Below, one piece after another: positions 120-9,305 of a stretch of DNA of 10,478 nucleotides. The translations under genes and the position numbers were made by a program. The stretch spans positions 1-10,478 of the forward strand of contig JALWQC010000489.1 of assembly GCA_027080755.1 (NCBI GenBank), read 5' to 3'. The stretch comes from Paracoccaceae bacterium (lineage in GTDB: Bacteria > Pseudomonadota > Alphaproteobacteria > Rhodobacterales > Rhodobacteraceae). Each line of letters starts with the position of its first letter. Position 1 is the stretch's first letter. A model generated the notes under the pieces. The model was given only the letters and a program-made list of their open reading frames with translations, was not told the DNA's origin and ran no database searches.

Positions 120-758
120 ATGGACGACACACCGGAAAACGAAATCGAATCCCTGTTCGAAGCCCCGCCGATGGGCGAACAGGAACGCATGATAGAGGCG
201 ATCCTCTTTGCCACCGCCACGCCGATGACCAGCAAGCAACTGGCCGAACGGATGCCCCACGGCTGCGAGGTCCCCGAGGCCCTGGCCCGCCTGCGCAAAC
301 GCTACGAGGGCAGGGGGGTGCATCTGGTCAAGGCGGGGGACGGCTGGGCCTTTCGCACGGCGCCCGATCTGGGCTTTTTGATGCAAAAGGAAACGGTGGA
401 AACGCGCAAACTGTCGCAAGCGGCCATCGAAACACTGGCGATCATCGCCTACCACCAGCCCACAACCCGCGCCGAGATAGAGGAAATCCGCGGTGTCTCT
501 GTATCGCGTGGCACGCTCGATATGCTGCTGGAACTGGGGTGGATCAAGCTGGGCCGCCGTCGCATGACCCCGGGGCGCCCCGTAACCTTTATCGTCACAC
601 AGGAATTTCTGGATCACTTCGGGCTGGAAAGCAGCCGCGATCTGCCCGGCATCAAGGAACTGCGCGCCGCCGGCATTCTGGACAACCGCCCCCCGCCGGG
701 CGTCAAGCCGGAGGACGAAGACGGCGAAACCCGTGGTCAGGACGACATGTTCGAATAG
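120..758 (+). CDS. scpB: ScpB, segregation and condensation protein B
   Basis: A 212-residue protein. ScpB is a dimer of tandem winged-helix proteins that binds the central part of ScpA in the SMC condensin complex for chromosome condensation and segregation. The first winged helix is visible around residues 20-85 (ERMIEAILFATATPMTSKQLAERM). The second contains the family signature IETLAIIAYHQPTTRAEIEEIRGV (about residues 105-128), followed by the glycine-arginine turn GRRRMTPGRP and the motif FLDHFGLESSRDLPGI. The start at 120 is chosen because it follows the scpA stop by one base and leaves a normal family length; an upstream in-frame start at 21 would lie inside scpA in another frame. No strong ribosome binding site is seen, which fits translational coupling to scpA. 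The acidic tail ends at a TAG whose last base abuts the left copy of the dcd-end repeat. Confidence 0.95.
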   Translation: MDDTPENEIESLFEAPPMGEQERMIEAILFATATPMTSKQLAERMPHGCEVPEALARLRKRYEGRGVHLVKAGDGWAFRTAPDLGFLMQKETVETRKLSQAAIETLAIIAYHQPTTRAEIEEIRGVSVSRGTLDMLLELGWIKLGRRRMTPGRPVTFIVTQEFLDHFGLESSRDLPGIKELRAAGILDNRPPPGVKPEDEDGETRGQDDMFE

Positions 759-791
759 CTACCTGAAATGTTTCGACAGCTTCAGGCCCTG
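758..791 (+). repeat. Left copy of 34-bp direct repeat (duplicated 3' end of dcd)
   Basis: This segment matches 2410-2443 at 31 of 34 positions; the differences are at 768, 780 and 789. Read on the minus strand it encodes QGLKLSKHFR-stop, exactly the last ten residues of the intact dcd gene at 2411-3493, and all three differences fall on silent third codon positions. Similarity stops abruptly at 792. The core has imperfect dyad symmetry: arms CCTGAA (762-767) and TTCAGG (781-786), inner TGT/ACA around a TTCG centre (772-775). It directly adjoins the scpB stop codon, giving back-to-back convergent stops TAG-CTA. It is either a displaced gene tail or one of two attachment-type ends of the inserted block. 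Confidence 0.9.
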
Positions 792-806
792 AATAAAATT
801 AGAACA

Positions 807-834
807 TTTACATCGGTCGCGGGACTTATATATT
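807..834 (+). promoter_or_regulatory. Candidate sigma-70-type promoter for the inserted hydrolase gene
   Basis: TTTACA (807-812) and TATATT (829-834), each one base from consensus, are separated by 16 bases. They lie inside the AT-rich insert, between the left repeat and the ATG at 888. This suggests that the inserted gene carries its own promoter. The call is by eye only, and AT-rich sequence gives such matches more often than the surrounding DNA. Confidence 0.45.
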
Positions 835-887
835 TGTGGGACTGTCGTGTAAGCAAGATTAACACCTTGAGTTCTATAAGGGTTTCG

Positions 888-2405
888 ATGCCACTAGATG
901 TTTATATATTTATCGGGCAAAGCAATATGTCCGGTCTTGTTAATGGCTTTTCGAATGTATCCCAAAAGTGGCTGTCTCCTGTTCCCAATGTATCCATATG
1001 GGATGCCGGCAAGTGGGCGGTGTTTGATCCTCTGAATATTGCGGATACCCGACTTGGGCCCGAGTTTTCGTTTATACATGAACTGGTTAATTCCGGTCAC
1101 GGGCCATTTGGAATTATTAAGCTCTCCAAGCCCGCTACGTATCTTGCGACAGATTGGCGTGCAAAAAATGGGCGGCTGTATAAAAAACTTGTCAAGGAAG
1201 TTCGAAATGCAGGTCAGGAAAACAAGATAAAAATCAAAGGCGTCTTATGGGTTCAAGGGGAAGCCGATGCAATCGATGAAGTAAACGCGAAAAATTATCG
1301 TTCCAATCTGGAGCATTTCGTAACCAGCTTGCGTAATGACCTGAAGATTGAAGAGGCACCTTTTATAGCGGCTGTCGTTAATCCTCCTTTGGATATTTGC
1401 CCTTATGTTTTCTTGGTTAACGAGGCTCAAAGAAAAAATTCCCTGTCGAATTATCACACTGTCGAATGTCATGATTTGCCAAAAAGGCGTGATAATCTGC
1501 ATTACTCCGTGCGGGGATTGTCAAAGCTTGGAAAAAGGCTGGCTTCCGAAGTTTTGAAGTTGGAAACGGTGAGTGAAACTCTGGAAGAGTATTTTTATAC
1601 CGGTGATCTGTTGCGCTTGAAATTCAACGGATACCCGATTGACGACGGGAAACTGGTGTTGTGTATGCCGCATGCTGTTGTTGGAAACGGTTTTGAAGAA
1701 AAGGGGTTTGGCGAAGATTATTTTTCCAAGAAAGGCCAAGCCGCGGTTTATCTGTTCTCCAGGCATTCGGATTGGTTTCAAAACGCCGAGATATGGGATG
1801 CTATGGACGCATTGAGGGAAAAATTTCCTAATGCCGAGATCCTTATTTATGGTGCCAGTATGGGGGCCTATGGGGCGCTGCTGGTTTCAAAATACATCGG
1901 TGCAACCAAAGTATTGGCCATAGCTCCGCAGTATTCGATAGATCGGAAATCTGTTCCATTTGAATATCGCTGGAAAAATGCAATCAGAAATATTGGCTCT
2001 TTCCGCTATGATCTTGGGGAATATATTTCCGGGGATTGTACAATATGGGTCTTTTATGACCCATACCATCTGGACCGAAAGCATATTGAAATGATGCCCG
2101 ACACTGAAAACTGGGAACACTTCAGGCTGCCTTTTGTCGGTCATAGGCCGCTGGAATTTATTATCGAACTCGGGCTTTTTAGTGAAATTTTTTCTGCCTG
2201 TATAAATAATGACGTAACGGCTGCGGAATTACGTAAAAAAATTAAATCGGAAAGAATGAATAGCCAGTGGTATTGGGTGAATCTCGGGGGGGTGGCAATA
2301 AAAAATCATAGACATATTGCACATATTGCGTGTGAAAACGCCGAGAAACTGGGGCCTGCAAGCCGCAAGTTGAAAAAGCTGAAAAACGCCCTAAGCATGG
2401 AATAG
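888..2405 (+). CDS. Two-domain hydrolase: SGNH/sialate-O-acetylesterase-like domain plus alpha/beta-hydrolase-like domain, on an AT-rich insert
   Basis: A 505-residue protein with no signal peptide. Residues about 4-225 carry the SGNH-esterase blocks as seen in carbohydrate esterase family 6/SASA proteins: GQSNMSG with candidate nucleophile Ser12, LWVQGEAD (Gln123-Gly124-Glu125), and DNLHYS with the Asp202/His205 pair. Residues about 245-435 look like an alpha/beta hydrolase: nucleophile elbow YGASMGAYGAL (Ser324), a possible acid at Asp391 (FYDPYH) and a possible base at His419 (VGHRP). About 70 further residues are lysine-rich and unrecognised. Family knowledge suggests removal of acyl groups from sugars, but the substrate is not deducible. 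The frame stays open upstream to an ATG at 768 inside the repeat; 888 is preferred because an AAGGG ribosome binding site lies five bases upstream and the first domain strand begins there. Base composition is far more AT-rich than its neighbours, indicating acquisition. It is convergent with dcd, with 5 bases between the stop codons. Confidence 0.8.
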   Translation: MPLDVYIFIGQSNMSGLVNGFSNVSQKWLSPVPNVSIWDAGKWAVFDPLNIADTRLGPEFSFIHELVNSGHGPFGIIKLSKPATYLATDWRAKNGRLYKKLVKEVRNAGQENKIKIKGVLWVQGEADAIDEVNAKNYRSNLEHFVTSLRNDLKIEEAPFIAAVVNPPLDICPYVFLVNEAQRKNSLSNYHTVECHDLPKRRDNLHYSVRGLSKLGKRLASEVLKLETVSETLEEYFYTGDLLRLKFNGYPIDDGKLVLCMPHAVVGNGFEEKGFGEDYFSKKGQAAVYLFSRHSDWFQNAEIWDAMDALREKFPNAEILIYGASMGAYGALLVSKYIGATKVLAIAPQYSIDRKSVPFEYRWKNAIRNIGSFRYDLGEYISGDCTIWVFYDPYHLDRKHIEMMPDTENWEHFRLPFVGHRPLEFIIELGLFSEIFSACINNDVTAAELRKKIKSERMNSQWYWVNLGGVAIKNHRHIAHIACENAEKLGPASRKLKKLKNALSME

Positions 2406-2409
2406 CCCT

Positions 2410-2443
2410 GCTACCTGAAGTGTTTCGACAGTTTCAGGCCTTG
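2410..2443 (+). repeat. Right copy of 34-bp direct repeat (3' end of intact dcd)
   Basis: This copy forms the last ten codons and stop of dcd on the minus strand and lies 4 bases after the stop of the inserted gene. Relative to the left copy (758-791) it differs at 2420, 2432 and 2441, all silent in dcd. The dyad arms CCTGAA (2414-2419) and TTCAGG (2433-2438), the inner TGT/ACA and the central TTCG (2424-2427) are unchanged between copies; two of the three differences sit in the bulge between the outer and inner stems. GAATAG precedes both copies, directly at the left one and with a CCCTG spacer at the right one, which may be chance. Confidence 0.9.
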
Positions 2444-3493
2444 CCCCTGATAGTTTGATCCCATGTCCTTGCCATAGAGGATATCGGGCACCTCGGTCAT
2501 GCGTTCATAGACCAGCCGCCCGACGATTTGTCCGTGTTCCAGGGCAAAGGGGGCCTCGTGGCAGCGGACTTCCAGCACCCCGCGCGACCCTTGCCCGCCG
2601 GCCGCGGCATGGCCGAAACCGGGGTCGAAGAAACCGGCGTAATGCACGCGGAATTCCCCGACCATCGCCAGATAGGGGGCCATTTCGGCGGCGCAATCGG
2701 GGGGGACATGCACGGCCTCGCGGCTGACCAGAATGTAAAACGCCCCGGGATCAAGGATCATCGAGCCGTTCTGCGTGCGCACCGGCTCCCAGAACTCGGA
2801 GGGGTCGTAAAAGGCAATGCGGTCCAGATCGATCAGCCCCGTGTGCGGTTTGGCGCGATAGCCGACGATGCCGTCCTTGCGCGGGGTCAGATCGACGGAA
2901 AAGCCCAGCCCGTTGTCTATGTGGGCCTCTACGTCCACCAGCGCCTGTTCCGCATCCATCGCGCGCAGCTCGTCATCAGACAGCACAACCTGCCCCTGAC
3001 GGAAACGGATCTGGTTCAGGCGCATGCCCGGGCGGGCCAGCACGGAAAAGGATCGGGGCGAGATTTCGGCGTAAAGCGGGCCTTCATAGCCGGCCTCTAT
3101 CCGGTCGAATTCGGTGCCGCTGTCGGTAATCAGCCGCGTGAACAGGTCTAGCCGTCCGGTGGAGCTTTTGGCGTTGGCGACCGCGTTGATCGTTTCGGGC
3201 AGGGCCAGCCCCTCCATCAACGGGACCACATAGACGCAGCCTTTTTCCAGCACCGCGCCGTTGGTCAAATCAATGCTGTGCATGGCAAAATCCTGCAGGC
3301 GGTCCGCCACCGTGGAACCGGCCCCCGGCAGGAAAGAGGCCCGCACCCGCCACGCCACATTCCCCAGCCGCAGGTCCAGCGAGGCAGGCTGTATCTGTCC
3401 GTCCGGCACCGGCTGTGTTGCAGTGATGCGCCCGTCGGCAAGCATGTCACGAATGGTCTGGCTGGGCAGAACGCCCTGTGTGGTGCTGTTCAT
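2411..3493 (-). CDS. dcd: 2'-deoxycytidine 5'-triphosphate deaminase, long double-domain alphaproteobacterial form
   Basis: A 360-residue protein of the dUTPase/Dcd fold superfamily, deaminating dCTP to dUTP to feed dTMP synthesis in the cytoplasm. Two related halves are visible. In the first, DGQIQPASLDLRLG (residues 32-45) is the N-terminal family motif, followed by AKSSTGRLDLFTRLITD and AGYEGPLYAEISPRSFSVL with RPGMRLNQIRF. The second half repeats the pattern with AGFFDPGFGH and GVLEVRCHEAPFALEHGQIVGRLVYE. E. coli Dcd is about 193 residues, so this resembles a duplicated fold within one chain. The C-terminal tail (GSNYQGQGLKLSKHFR) is the part duplicated at 758-791. GGGGAC lies 5 bases before the ATG as ribosome binding site. 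A terminator hairpin ends 24 nt upstream of the start codon, leaving little room for a dedicated promoter. The fold family is certain; dCTP rather than dUTP as substrate comes from family annotation. Confidence 0.88.
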   Translation of the reverse strand: MNSTTQGVLPSQTIRDMLADGRITATQPVPDGQIQPASLDLRLGNVAWRVRASFLPGAGSTVADRLQDFAMHSIDLTNGAVLEKGCVYVVPLMEGLALPETINAVANAKSSTGRLDLFTRLITDSGTEFDRIEAGYEGPLYAEISPRSFSVLARPGMRLNQIRFRQGQVVLSDDELRAMDAEQALVDVEAHIDNGLGFSVDLTPRKDGIVGYRAKPHTGLIDLDRIAFYDPSEFWEPVRTQNGSMILDPGAFYILVSREAVHVPPDCAAEMAPYLAMVGEFRVHYAGFFDPGFGHAAAGGQGSRGVLEVRCHEAPFALEHGQIVGRLVYERMTEVPDILYGKDMGSNYQGQGLKLSKHFR

Positions 3494-7663: not shown

Positions 7664-8119
7664 ATGTCAGGCAAGATTATGCGCAGGATTGTTTTGGTTT
7701 CGATGCTTGGCACCGCGACGCTGGCGGCCGGTTGTTCCCCGATTATCCAGAATCACGGCTATGTGCCGGTTTCCGCCGATGTGGCGGCGCTGCAGCCGGG
7801 CAAGGACACCAGGGACAGCGTTTATGCCGCCCTGGGCGAGCCGACCCTGAAAGGGGTCGAGGGTGACAGCAGCTGGTATTACGTATCCTACACCGAGCGC
7901 CGCTTTGCCTTTTTCCCGCCCAAAATCACCAGCCGCGAAATTCTGGCCATATCCTTTGACGCCCGCGGGCGCGTGGCCGCGATCAACCGCTACGGGCTGA
8001 AAGACGGTATCGTCATTGATCTGAACACCAACGAAACCGTCACCGGCGGGCGCAAGCTGTCCTTCCTGCAACAGCTGCTGGGCAACATCGGCAACTTCAG
8101 CGCCGAGAGCTTCCTCTAG
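7664..8119 (+). CDS. bamE: Outer membrane protein assembly factor BamE (SmpA/OmlA lipoprotein)
   Basis: A 151-residue lipoprotein of the BAM complex, which folds and inserts beta-barrel proteins into the outer membrane. The N-terminus has two arginines, a hydrophobic stretch and the lipobox LAAGC, giving lipidated Cys24. The SmpA/OmlA domain follows: LQPGKDTRDSVYAALGEPT (about residues 43-61), then WYYVSYTERRFAFFPPKITSREILAISFDARGRV. The ATG at 7664 is chosen because AGAGGG lies 7 bases upstream; a TTG at 7649 is in frame but lacks such a site, and an ATG at 7679 is also possible. Its TAG stop shares the tetranucleotide CTAG (8116-8119) with the stop of the convergent gene. Confidence 0.94.
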   Translation: MSGKIMRRIVLVSMLGTATLAAGCSPIIQNHGYVPVSADVAALQPGKDTRDSVYAALGEPTLKGVEGDSSWYYVSYTERRFAFFPPKITSREILAISFDARGRVAAINRYGLKDGIVIDLNTNETVTGGRKLSFLQQLLGNIGNFSAESFL

Positions 8120-9228
8120 GCCGGCTTTGCGCGCGGTTTTCTGCGGGCCAGTCGCCGCAAGCCTCGTTTCAACAGCCAGCCAATCAGAGAATGCAGTATG
8201 CCTGAAACCATGCCCGAAAGGATACTTAATGCAGTCAGGAAGGCTGCTCCGGCCGTGATAAAGGTGTCACTATAGCGCATTGTCGCGCGAATGGCTCTGT
8301 TCTTGCCCAGAACCTCGATAATCCCGACGCTCTGCTTTCCTTCCGCCTTTGTGATTCTGGAGATTGCGCGTGCATCGGCGGGGGTATCGATCAGCTTCAT
8401 GAAATGCAGGGTCTCGGGGATTGATGTGTTTCTTCTGATGTCTTCGACATTTTGTGCCAAGTGTACCAGAGGGGCCATTTTTTCCGCATCAATTACCCTG
8501 CGTAAATTTGGCCCGAAATTCCGAATGCCACTTTTGGCTATCAAGCCCCAGTTTATCGCCCTGCCGAATGTGTGGCGGGCGCTTTTTACCAGCGTCGAGG
8601 ACAGCCGCCCCATCCGGCGCGCTGTTTTGATAAGCGAGGCCCCAAGCTTTATTGTTTCCGAAGAACCACCGGTTAACGGAACCAGAGCCGTTGCCCCCAG
8701 TCCCAGAACAGACAGCCCCAGATCAAACATATCAACATCACGCCCCAACATATAATTAGTGCTTTGCAAGACAACCCCCGAGACATCTCCAAGCGGGGTC
8801 AGGTCGATCGGCGCACGGCATAACAGTACGGCCGAAAGCTCGCAATTGGTGGCATCCCACATGCATTTCAGGCATTTTCCGGAACCGGCAAGAATCCCGT
8901 GGTCTTCGTCGTAGGCAATGTCCTTTGCTGCTATGACATCGGCCTTGATCGGGATATTCCGCATTTCCGCCATTTCTCCGACTGCCTCAATCACCAGCCA
9001 GTTTCGGGGCGTTTCCTGCAAAAGGGCGGAGATATGCGCCGAAATGGAATCAGGCGTCGCATAGCGGGCAAGCTCATACTCGATTTTGGCGGTAAGCTCG
9101 TTTTGTTCCCGTTCAACGAAAAAACGCGCCGCCGGATTTTTCAGGATTCCGCGGATATTCATTGTTGTACCCAGAAGTGACAGTATCATCAGGGTGGTCA
9201 GAGCAAGGCTAGCGGCTTTTCGAAGCAT
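8116..9228 (-). CDS. Unrecognised membrane protein with a four-cysteine cluster
   Basis: A 370-residue protein that I do not recognise. The N-terminus (residues 1-24) is a positively charged signal or anchor segment (LRKAASLALTTLMILSLLG). A charged, probably helical region follows (about 36-110), then four cysteines in 19 residues (Cys119, 122, 129, 137, the first two as CLKC), which could form disulfides or bind metal. Residues 165-187 are hydrophobic (LGLSVLGLGATALVPLTG). About 200-245 is basic, rich in alanine, serine and arginine, and a C-terminal hydrophobic segment (323-353) ends in a strongly basic tail (RRLARRKPRAKPA), suggesting at least two membrane spans. The start at 9228 is preferred over 9270 because AGGAT lies 7 bases upstream and the signal segment then begins at once. 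It is more AT-rich than bamE and olsB (43% G+C over 8701-8760). Its stop overlaps that of bamE by 4 bases. Confidence 0.75.
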   Translation of the reverse strand: MLRKAASLALTTLMILSLLGTTMNIRGILKNPAARFFVEREQNELTAKIEYELARYATPDSISAHISALLQETPRNWLVIEAVGEMAEMRNIPIKADVIAAKDIAYDEDHGILAGSGKCLKCMWDATNCELSAVLLCRAPIDLTPLGDVSGVVLQSTNYMLGRDVDMFDLGLSVLGLGATALVPLTGGSSETIKLGASLIKTARRMGRLSSTLVKSARHTFGRAINWGLIAKSGIRNFGPNLRRVIDAEKMAPLVHLAQNVEDIRRNTSIPETLHFMKLIDTPADARAISRITKAEGKQSVGIIEVLGKNRAIRATMRYSDTFITAGAAFLTALSILSGMVSGILHSLIGWLLKRGLRRLARRKPRAKPA

Positions 9229-9305
9229 CGACGTAATCCTGTGGCAAATATCGACAGGGTAAGGGGGCAATAGAAAAATGCAAGAGAGACGCTACAGGGT
9301 TACGG

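Follow-up and report, generated by a model that had tools for sequence, protein, structure and literature searches.

A one-gene insert between scpB and dcd flanked by copies of the dcd 3' end, and a like scar at leuC

The window, as we call the whole 10,478-bp stretch of DNA analysed here, carries one foreign gene that separates scpB from dcd and is bordered on either side by a copy of the dcd 3' end. An insert of the same structure, holding a distant homologue of this gene, lies at the 3' end of leuC in another genus. The most likely origin of the scar at dcd is one-sided homologous recombination, as opposed to the action of a dedicated mobile element, and on balance we favor homology-facilitated illegitimate recombination (HFIR) as the way in which the gene was acquired.

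The insert and the scpB–dcd junction

The features on which the argument rests are as follows. Genes of the window for which no profile match is cited bear the names that we presume from their sequence.

120..758, plus strand: scpB (PF04079, E 4e-49); the stranded dcd tail follows immediately on its stop TAG (756-758)
759..791, minus strand: stranded (old) 3' end of dcd, the last ten codons plus stop, beside scpB as in the empty relative G009
787..791, no strand: CCCTG at the left insert edge, a possible, unproven microhomology seen in the sequence
792..2410, no strand: inserted segment, 44% GC, with one gene and no recombinase
878-882, plus strand: AAGGG before the cargo ATG, ribosome-binding-like as read from the sequence
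888..2405, plus strand: cargo coding sequence, 505 aa, with SASA/SGNH esterase and alpha/beta-hydrolase domains (PF03629 E 1.4e-41, alignment, structural model, Foldseek)
2406..2410, no strand: CCCTG at the right insert edge, seen in the sequence
2411..2443, minus strand: 3' end of intact dcd, the second repeat copy (repeat comparison, relatives)
2411..3493, minus strand: dcd, intact, 360 aa, the proposed homology anchor (PF22569/PF06559)

The predicted 34-bp direct repeat was confirmed (758-791 versus 2410-2443, 31/34 identical). Its dcd-derived part is 33 bp long (759-791 versus 2411-2443, 30/33), with all three differences synonymous; the 34th base, a G, is part of the scpB stop in the left copy and of a CCCTG in the right one. 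The pair had a local score of 25, whereas 60 shuffles of the window under a first-order Markov model gave 15 at best, and the genome-wide search that had been proposed found the 33-mer, with up to three mismatches, at just these two sites in the assembly. This assembly (2.22 Mb, 528 contigs, 93% complete; the window is on contig C489) is fragmented, and the joins in the window come from it; the leuC case has the same structure.

Between scpB and dcd lie 1.65 kb of 44% GC with a single gene. The AT-rich character of this block held up (GC 0.40-0.46 inside the insert versus 0.61-0.66 in windows of scpB and dcd), as did its coding content of one gene and no recombinase, since a single ORF, that of the esterase, fills 792-2410. 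The promoter-like sequence that had also been proposed (807-834) proved to be at chance level for the region, with 3 such matches found and 2.9 expected. Similarity to dcd stops at 791/792 and unrelated sequence follows, that is, the join was made without long homology. Relative to G009, all codons of scpB and dcd are present at the junction, which thus shows a short duplication and no deletion. Elsewhere in the window, 8116-9270 on the minus strand holds a 384-aa ORF of somewhat lower GC (about 0.51-0.56) and without a Pfam match.

We compared this junction within the genus, where dcd was found in 12 of 13 genomes and the junction was readable in nine besides the window; G002 and G012, in which contig ends came first, and G007, which has no dcd match, were left out. 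In 7/9 readable genus-mates scpB and dcd are directly joined, 0-2 bp apart, and the insert is therefore lineage-specific. The nearest empty relative, G009, reads TAG then CTA at the junction, the same as the left edge in the window. The gap measures 238 bp in G008, with a 67-aa ORF, and 868 bp in the sister genome G005, where another gene, of 275 aa, is present and the dcd tail is not duplicated. The empty genus-mates and the G005 cargo together support the prediction of a single foreign gene inserted, in a lineage-specific manner, at the 3' end of dcd. The absence of the left copy beside other cargo in G005 is, as we read it, a finding of the kind that the original prediction had itself named as speaking against its route of insertion. 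In the G005 gap (L003, G005:C5) the 275-aa ORF has no Pfam match, and its stop lies where G009 has the dcd stop.

In a survey of the family, dcd was found in 380 and scpB in 378 of 394 genomes. Coordinates were paired by eye for at least 63 genomes, and 40 stretches were taken, mostly with wide gaps, which biases the sample towards inserts; 80 named loci were added. The scpB–dcd gaps in this sample range from 0 to 3.2 kb and their cargo is diverse: they hold 82 ORFs of at least 150 aa, and the 38 that were scanned included MFS transporters (7), GGDEF proteins (4), Na/Ca exchangers (3) and single proteins with TIR, LamB, PALP and Hint domains. A dcd tail copy occurred in 1 of 110 distinct gaps (at least 12 bp), the window's own, with a score of 24; the next score was 14 and the rest were at most 11. 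Downstream of dcd in further stretches in which scpB was out of reach, none of 23 had a copy (some of these are just 0.3-1.5 kb long, and at least four come from genomes already counted). The dcd end is therefore not a recurrent attachment site, contrary to what had been proposed, and different cargo between two repeat copies, another expectation of that proposal, was not seen in any other tested gap. We conclude that scpB–dcd is a convergent junction that tolerates insertions rather than an attachment site. Many gaps of about 200-400 bp contain an ORF of 65-100 aa (those of L007 and L137 are short, basic and look alike); such an ORF has no room in 7/9 readable genus-mates of the window.

The cargo gene and its homologues at leuC

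The cargo ORF opens at 768, inside the repeat, and its homologues start near 888, where AAGGG precedes an ATG. Residues 3-223 of the protein match SASA (PF03629, E 1.4e-41). This half contains GQSNM, and in an alignment of 18 sequences G124, E125 and D127 are invariant and D202 and H205 are kept in at least 90%. The second half, which no Pfam model matched, has a GASMG nucleophile elbow, and D391, D396 and H419 are invariant across the 18 homologues. We take the catalytic roles of these residues in both halves to be the usual ones. The AlphaFold2 model (mean pLDDT 88, pTM 0.58) matched AT4G34215 (2apj) in Foldseek with a TM-score, by target, of 0.82; weaker matches were to alpha/beta hydrolases, among them the meningococcal capsule O-acetyltransferase. 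The N-terminal half thus resembles SASA / carbohydrate esterase family 6-like proteins (PF03629; AT4G34215, 2apj), with the catalytic motifs kept, whereas the fusion to an alpha/beta-hydrolase domain with its GASMG elbow sets the cargo apart from them. The gene looks intact, and the product is probably a carbohydrate esterase for surface or scavenged glycans.

This two-domain family is rare, with 33 members among 7,998 scored candidates; about 21 of the 33 are near full length, and the best, P0001 on a 72-kb contig, is 54% identical to the cargo. Matches to the cargo were found in 8 of 394 family genomes (E 1e-30, the window's included), and three of the others match over the full length. Among 390 genomes of the order (E 1e-60) we found its own genome and one partial match, and among 362 of the class (E 1e-80) its own genome only. 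A phage or plasmid origin of the gene was considered and rejected: no relative was confirmed in viral contigs, and none of 92 matching plasmid records reached 80% query coverage, the best 10 of the 92 matching the C-terminal half only.

In all three other full-length carriers (G168, G166, G031) the gene adjoins leuC. G168 and G166, of two other genera, have the order leuC-cargo-leuD without repeats, presumably the donor-type order. In G031, of another genus, the order is leuC-cargo-(leuC tail)-conv225-leuD, and the flanking direct repeat is 57 bp of the leuC tail (56/57 identical). G406, of the same genus as G031, has leuC-conv225-leuD and no cargo. The stranded leuC tail abuts the convergent conv225 as leuC does in this empty genome, just as the stranded dcd tail abuts scpB. 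At the join (L183:4695) leuC similarity stops and unrelated sequence lies beyond. Intact leuC and the stranded tail of G031 end at the same length in VRKMM and VRDLL, respectively; the KMM ending was absent from the few other leuC ends compared, and the last codons of the intact gene read as if they came from another leuC.

The two cases also differ. The G031 insert has a GC content of 0.52 against 0.53 in its flanks, that is, no contrast, unlike the window insert. The 33-bp dcd and 57-bp leuC repeats are unrelated in sequence, and the cargos, which are just 30% identical, are convergent with dcd in the window and co-directional with leuC in G031. If the two are taken as one system, the unrelated repeats and opposite orientations argue against one site-specific recombinase. 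The scar is present in two of the four full-length carriers, but the window was chosen for its scar, so the independent count is 1/3; among loci matching only the C-terminal half of the cargo it was absent from all 14 (some overlapping). An origin of the insert from the genome's own leuC locus was rejected, as leuC and leuD adjoin directly in the window genome and ten genus-mates; about 1.1 kb separates them in G008, and G007 has no leuC match.

As a background for flanking repeats, we found five pairs with a score of at least 22 in 1.76 Mb of partly overlapping stretches. By eye, four look like repeats inside coding sequence. The fifth is at L065:7978-9271 (Amylibacter sp. OFTM397, JAJFHZ010000006.1), where a 237-aa RTX-repeat gene (PF00353) in 41% GC DNA sits between a convergent pair, presumably FAH-like and GH25-like genes; in three relatives the matches to these two genes end at a distance of 12-33 bp. 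A 41-bp direct repeat (37/41) flanks the RTX-repeat gene; it occurs twice in that genome and is absent from the other loci compared.

Route of acquisition and rival explanations

By HFIR, a linear fragment of a relative's DNA, in which the cargo gene lay beside the 3' part of dcd, would have entered the cell by way of a gene transfer agent or transformation and recombined homologously within dcd, with RecA-type anchoring. At its other end the fragment would have been linked to the resident chromosome by an illegitimate join, located 33 bp within the old 3' end of dcd. Intact dcd would now end with the incoming tail, and the resident tail would be stranded beyond the cargo, beside scpB. Because in the empty relatives the stops of the two genes abut or nearly abut, a join further left would damage scpB, and only joins inside the redundant dcd tail would survive; a short tail duplication is expected, since in tight convergent pairs only such joins spare the neighbor. 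The gene transfer agent RcGTA delivers fragments of about 4.5 kb that are integrated by homologous recombination (passages of PMC9690577), and an RcGTA-like agent would be a candidate vehicle at hand in the group.

Consistent with this route, the stranded copy stands in the native scpB–dcd context of G009, and it differs from the intact dcd end only synonymously. The dcd donor state is hypothetical, as none of the genomes showed the cargo beside dcd without a stranded tail. At leuC, two genera show the donor-type order, and the donor-type, empty and product states fit a leuC-anchored fragment joined illegitimately in the resident leuC tail. The near-identity of the G031 copies (56/57) would be explained equally well by two copies of resident origin and by a donor tail. 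The occurrence of CCCTG at both insert edges is at most suggestive of a microhomology at the join.

The two window copies of the dcd tail share the changes GGC CTG and AGG, which are absent from the five genus-mates compared. At two of the three differing sites it is the intact copy that departs from both nearest relatives (G005, G009) and the stranded one that agrees with them, which is what an intact tail derived from a second lineage would show; at one of the three (CAA) three more distant genus-mates match the intact copy, and three sites are few for such a conclusion. The dcd product ends in HFKS in G005, HFK in G009 and HFR in the window. The G005 ending is at most a hint of an exchange, because other genus-mates also end one codon longer. 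A recombination signal in dcd between the window lineage and G005 has its breakpoint about 232 nt before the stop (2 of 2000 permutations in one site class, 212 of 2000 in the second). Identity between the two is 0.82 in the 5' part, 0.925 in the middle and 0.84 in the 3' part of dcd, and the middle may be an exchanged tract. Since this tract rather than the 3' end stands out, the signal is not tied to the insertion, and the mosaic was set aside as proof of import.

A staggered break or template switching, for which we see a smaller but appreciable chance, would dispense with the homologous anchor: both fragment ends would be joined illegitimately with overlap, and 33 bp (dcd) or 57 bp (leuC) would be duplicated in the manner of a long target-site duplication. 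The near-identity of the leuC copies, CCCTG at both insert edges and the varying repeat lengths agree with it. However, random joined DNA would hardly supply a new leuC C-terminus of equal length, the linkage of leuC and cargo seen in G168 and in G166 suggests that the two were transferred together, and two of the three differences in the window, all synonymous, fall in the selected copy when compared with the two nearest relatives.

The original prediction regarded the block as the remnant of an element integrated site-specifically at the dcd 3' end with a matching tail. Its lineage-specific foreign gene at this position stands, but its attachment site is not supported, and as an origin of the insert we consider such an element unlikely. 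The topology is that of gene-end integration, with the target gene resealed and the old tail displaced, and on a viral contig a relic of a dcd tail occurs near an integrase gene, albeit in another topology. Against this, the insert has no recombinase, no other tested dcd locus has a tail copy, the leuC case has an unrelated repeat and the opposite cargo orientation, and the tail was not seen as a phage attP. The attP candidates amounted to three phage matches, the best with E 0.01, and four plasmid matches, the best of which (E 4e-7, 42 bp) lies in a 2.8-Mb Methylobacterium record and may itself be a dcd gene. A degenerate-pattern search of viral contigs gave one match, a phage-borne dcd. In this contig (L188:686-4109, IMGVR_UViG_3300035307_000014) intact dcd is at 691-1662 and a Phage_integrase gene at 2186-2821, both on the minus strand; the relic, 77 bp of a second dcd tail (82%), lies beside a dCMP-deaminase-type gene and upstream of intact dcd.

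A role of the tail as a terminator or structured RNA was also rejected: there is no U-tract, and tails at 0-6-bp junctions show no higher average stability than the rest. Both copies fold into a small hairpin of -8 to -11 kcal/mol, which seems to follow from the conserved codons.

A bolder idea, to which we give little credence, is that the rare SASA-hydrolase genes move as one-gene cassettes that lodge at core-gene 3' ends in tightly packed convergent pairs by a dedicated route copying the last 30-70 bp of the target, so that stranded tails would mark a non-autonomous cassette system. Very improbable is a slippage that first duplicated the dcd tail in tandem and a later insertion between the copies, perhaps with a 5-bp CCCTG duplication: CCCTG does flank the insert exactly, but no tandem tail was seen in the nine readable genus-mates or the tested gaps, and the leuC case would require both steps again.

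The entry of single foreign genes into compact genomes without mobile elements is rarely observed directly. When a core-gene tail is left stranded, it forms a readable scar of such an event, identifying the anchor gene and the direction. Because tblastn of a core protein reports the relic as a short second hit, as it did for leuC, such scars can be searched in any genome collection, and the natural rate of one-sided acquisition is therefore measurable.

Comparison with known systems

Some genomic islands integrate at gene 3' ends by means of tyrosine recombinases. The present insert is like them in having the gene tail at both edges and an intact target gene, but differs in that there is no recombinase, no recurrent site and no fixed cargo orientation. 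In the literature searched, as covered by titles and abstract openings and including few subscription papers, no insertion at the dcd end was described; for a cyanophage with dcd, the attachment site proposed in the pages of PMC2784084 consulted is elsewhere.

At T6SS and Rhs loci, old 3' parts are proposed to have been displaced in a similar way (sections of PMC5361080). Like their displaced immunity genes and orphan 3' regions, the module here is anchored in a conserved gene and the old 3' part is kept downstream. Unlike in those loci, as these sections describe them, the anchor is a housekeeping gene with a complete product, the cargo is unrelated and the relic is a few codons long.

HFIR itself, our preferred reading, is known in Streptococcus pneumoniae, Acinetobacter baylyi, Pseudomonas stutzeri and E. 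coli conjugation. According to passages of PMC3240628, its joins are mostly at 3-10 bp of microhomology, and in the laboratory a deletion of similar size is usual, not obligatory. The inserts described here share with HFIR as outlined there (PMC3240628) a single foreign segment with an illegitimate join on one side and, as we propose, an anchor by homology on the other; they differ in that the end of the anchor gene is duplicated, by 33 bp or 57 bp, instead of a deletion, and in that they stand in natural genomes.
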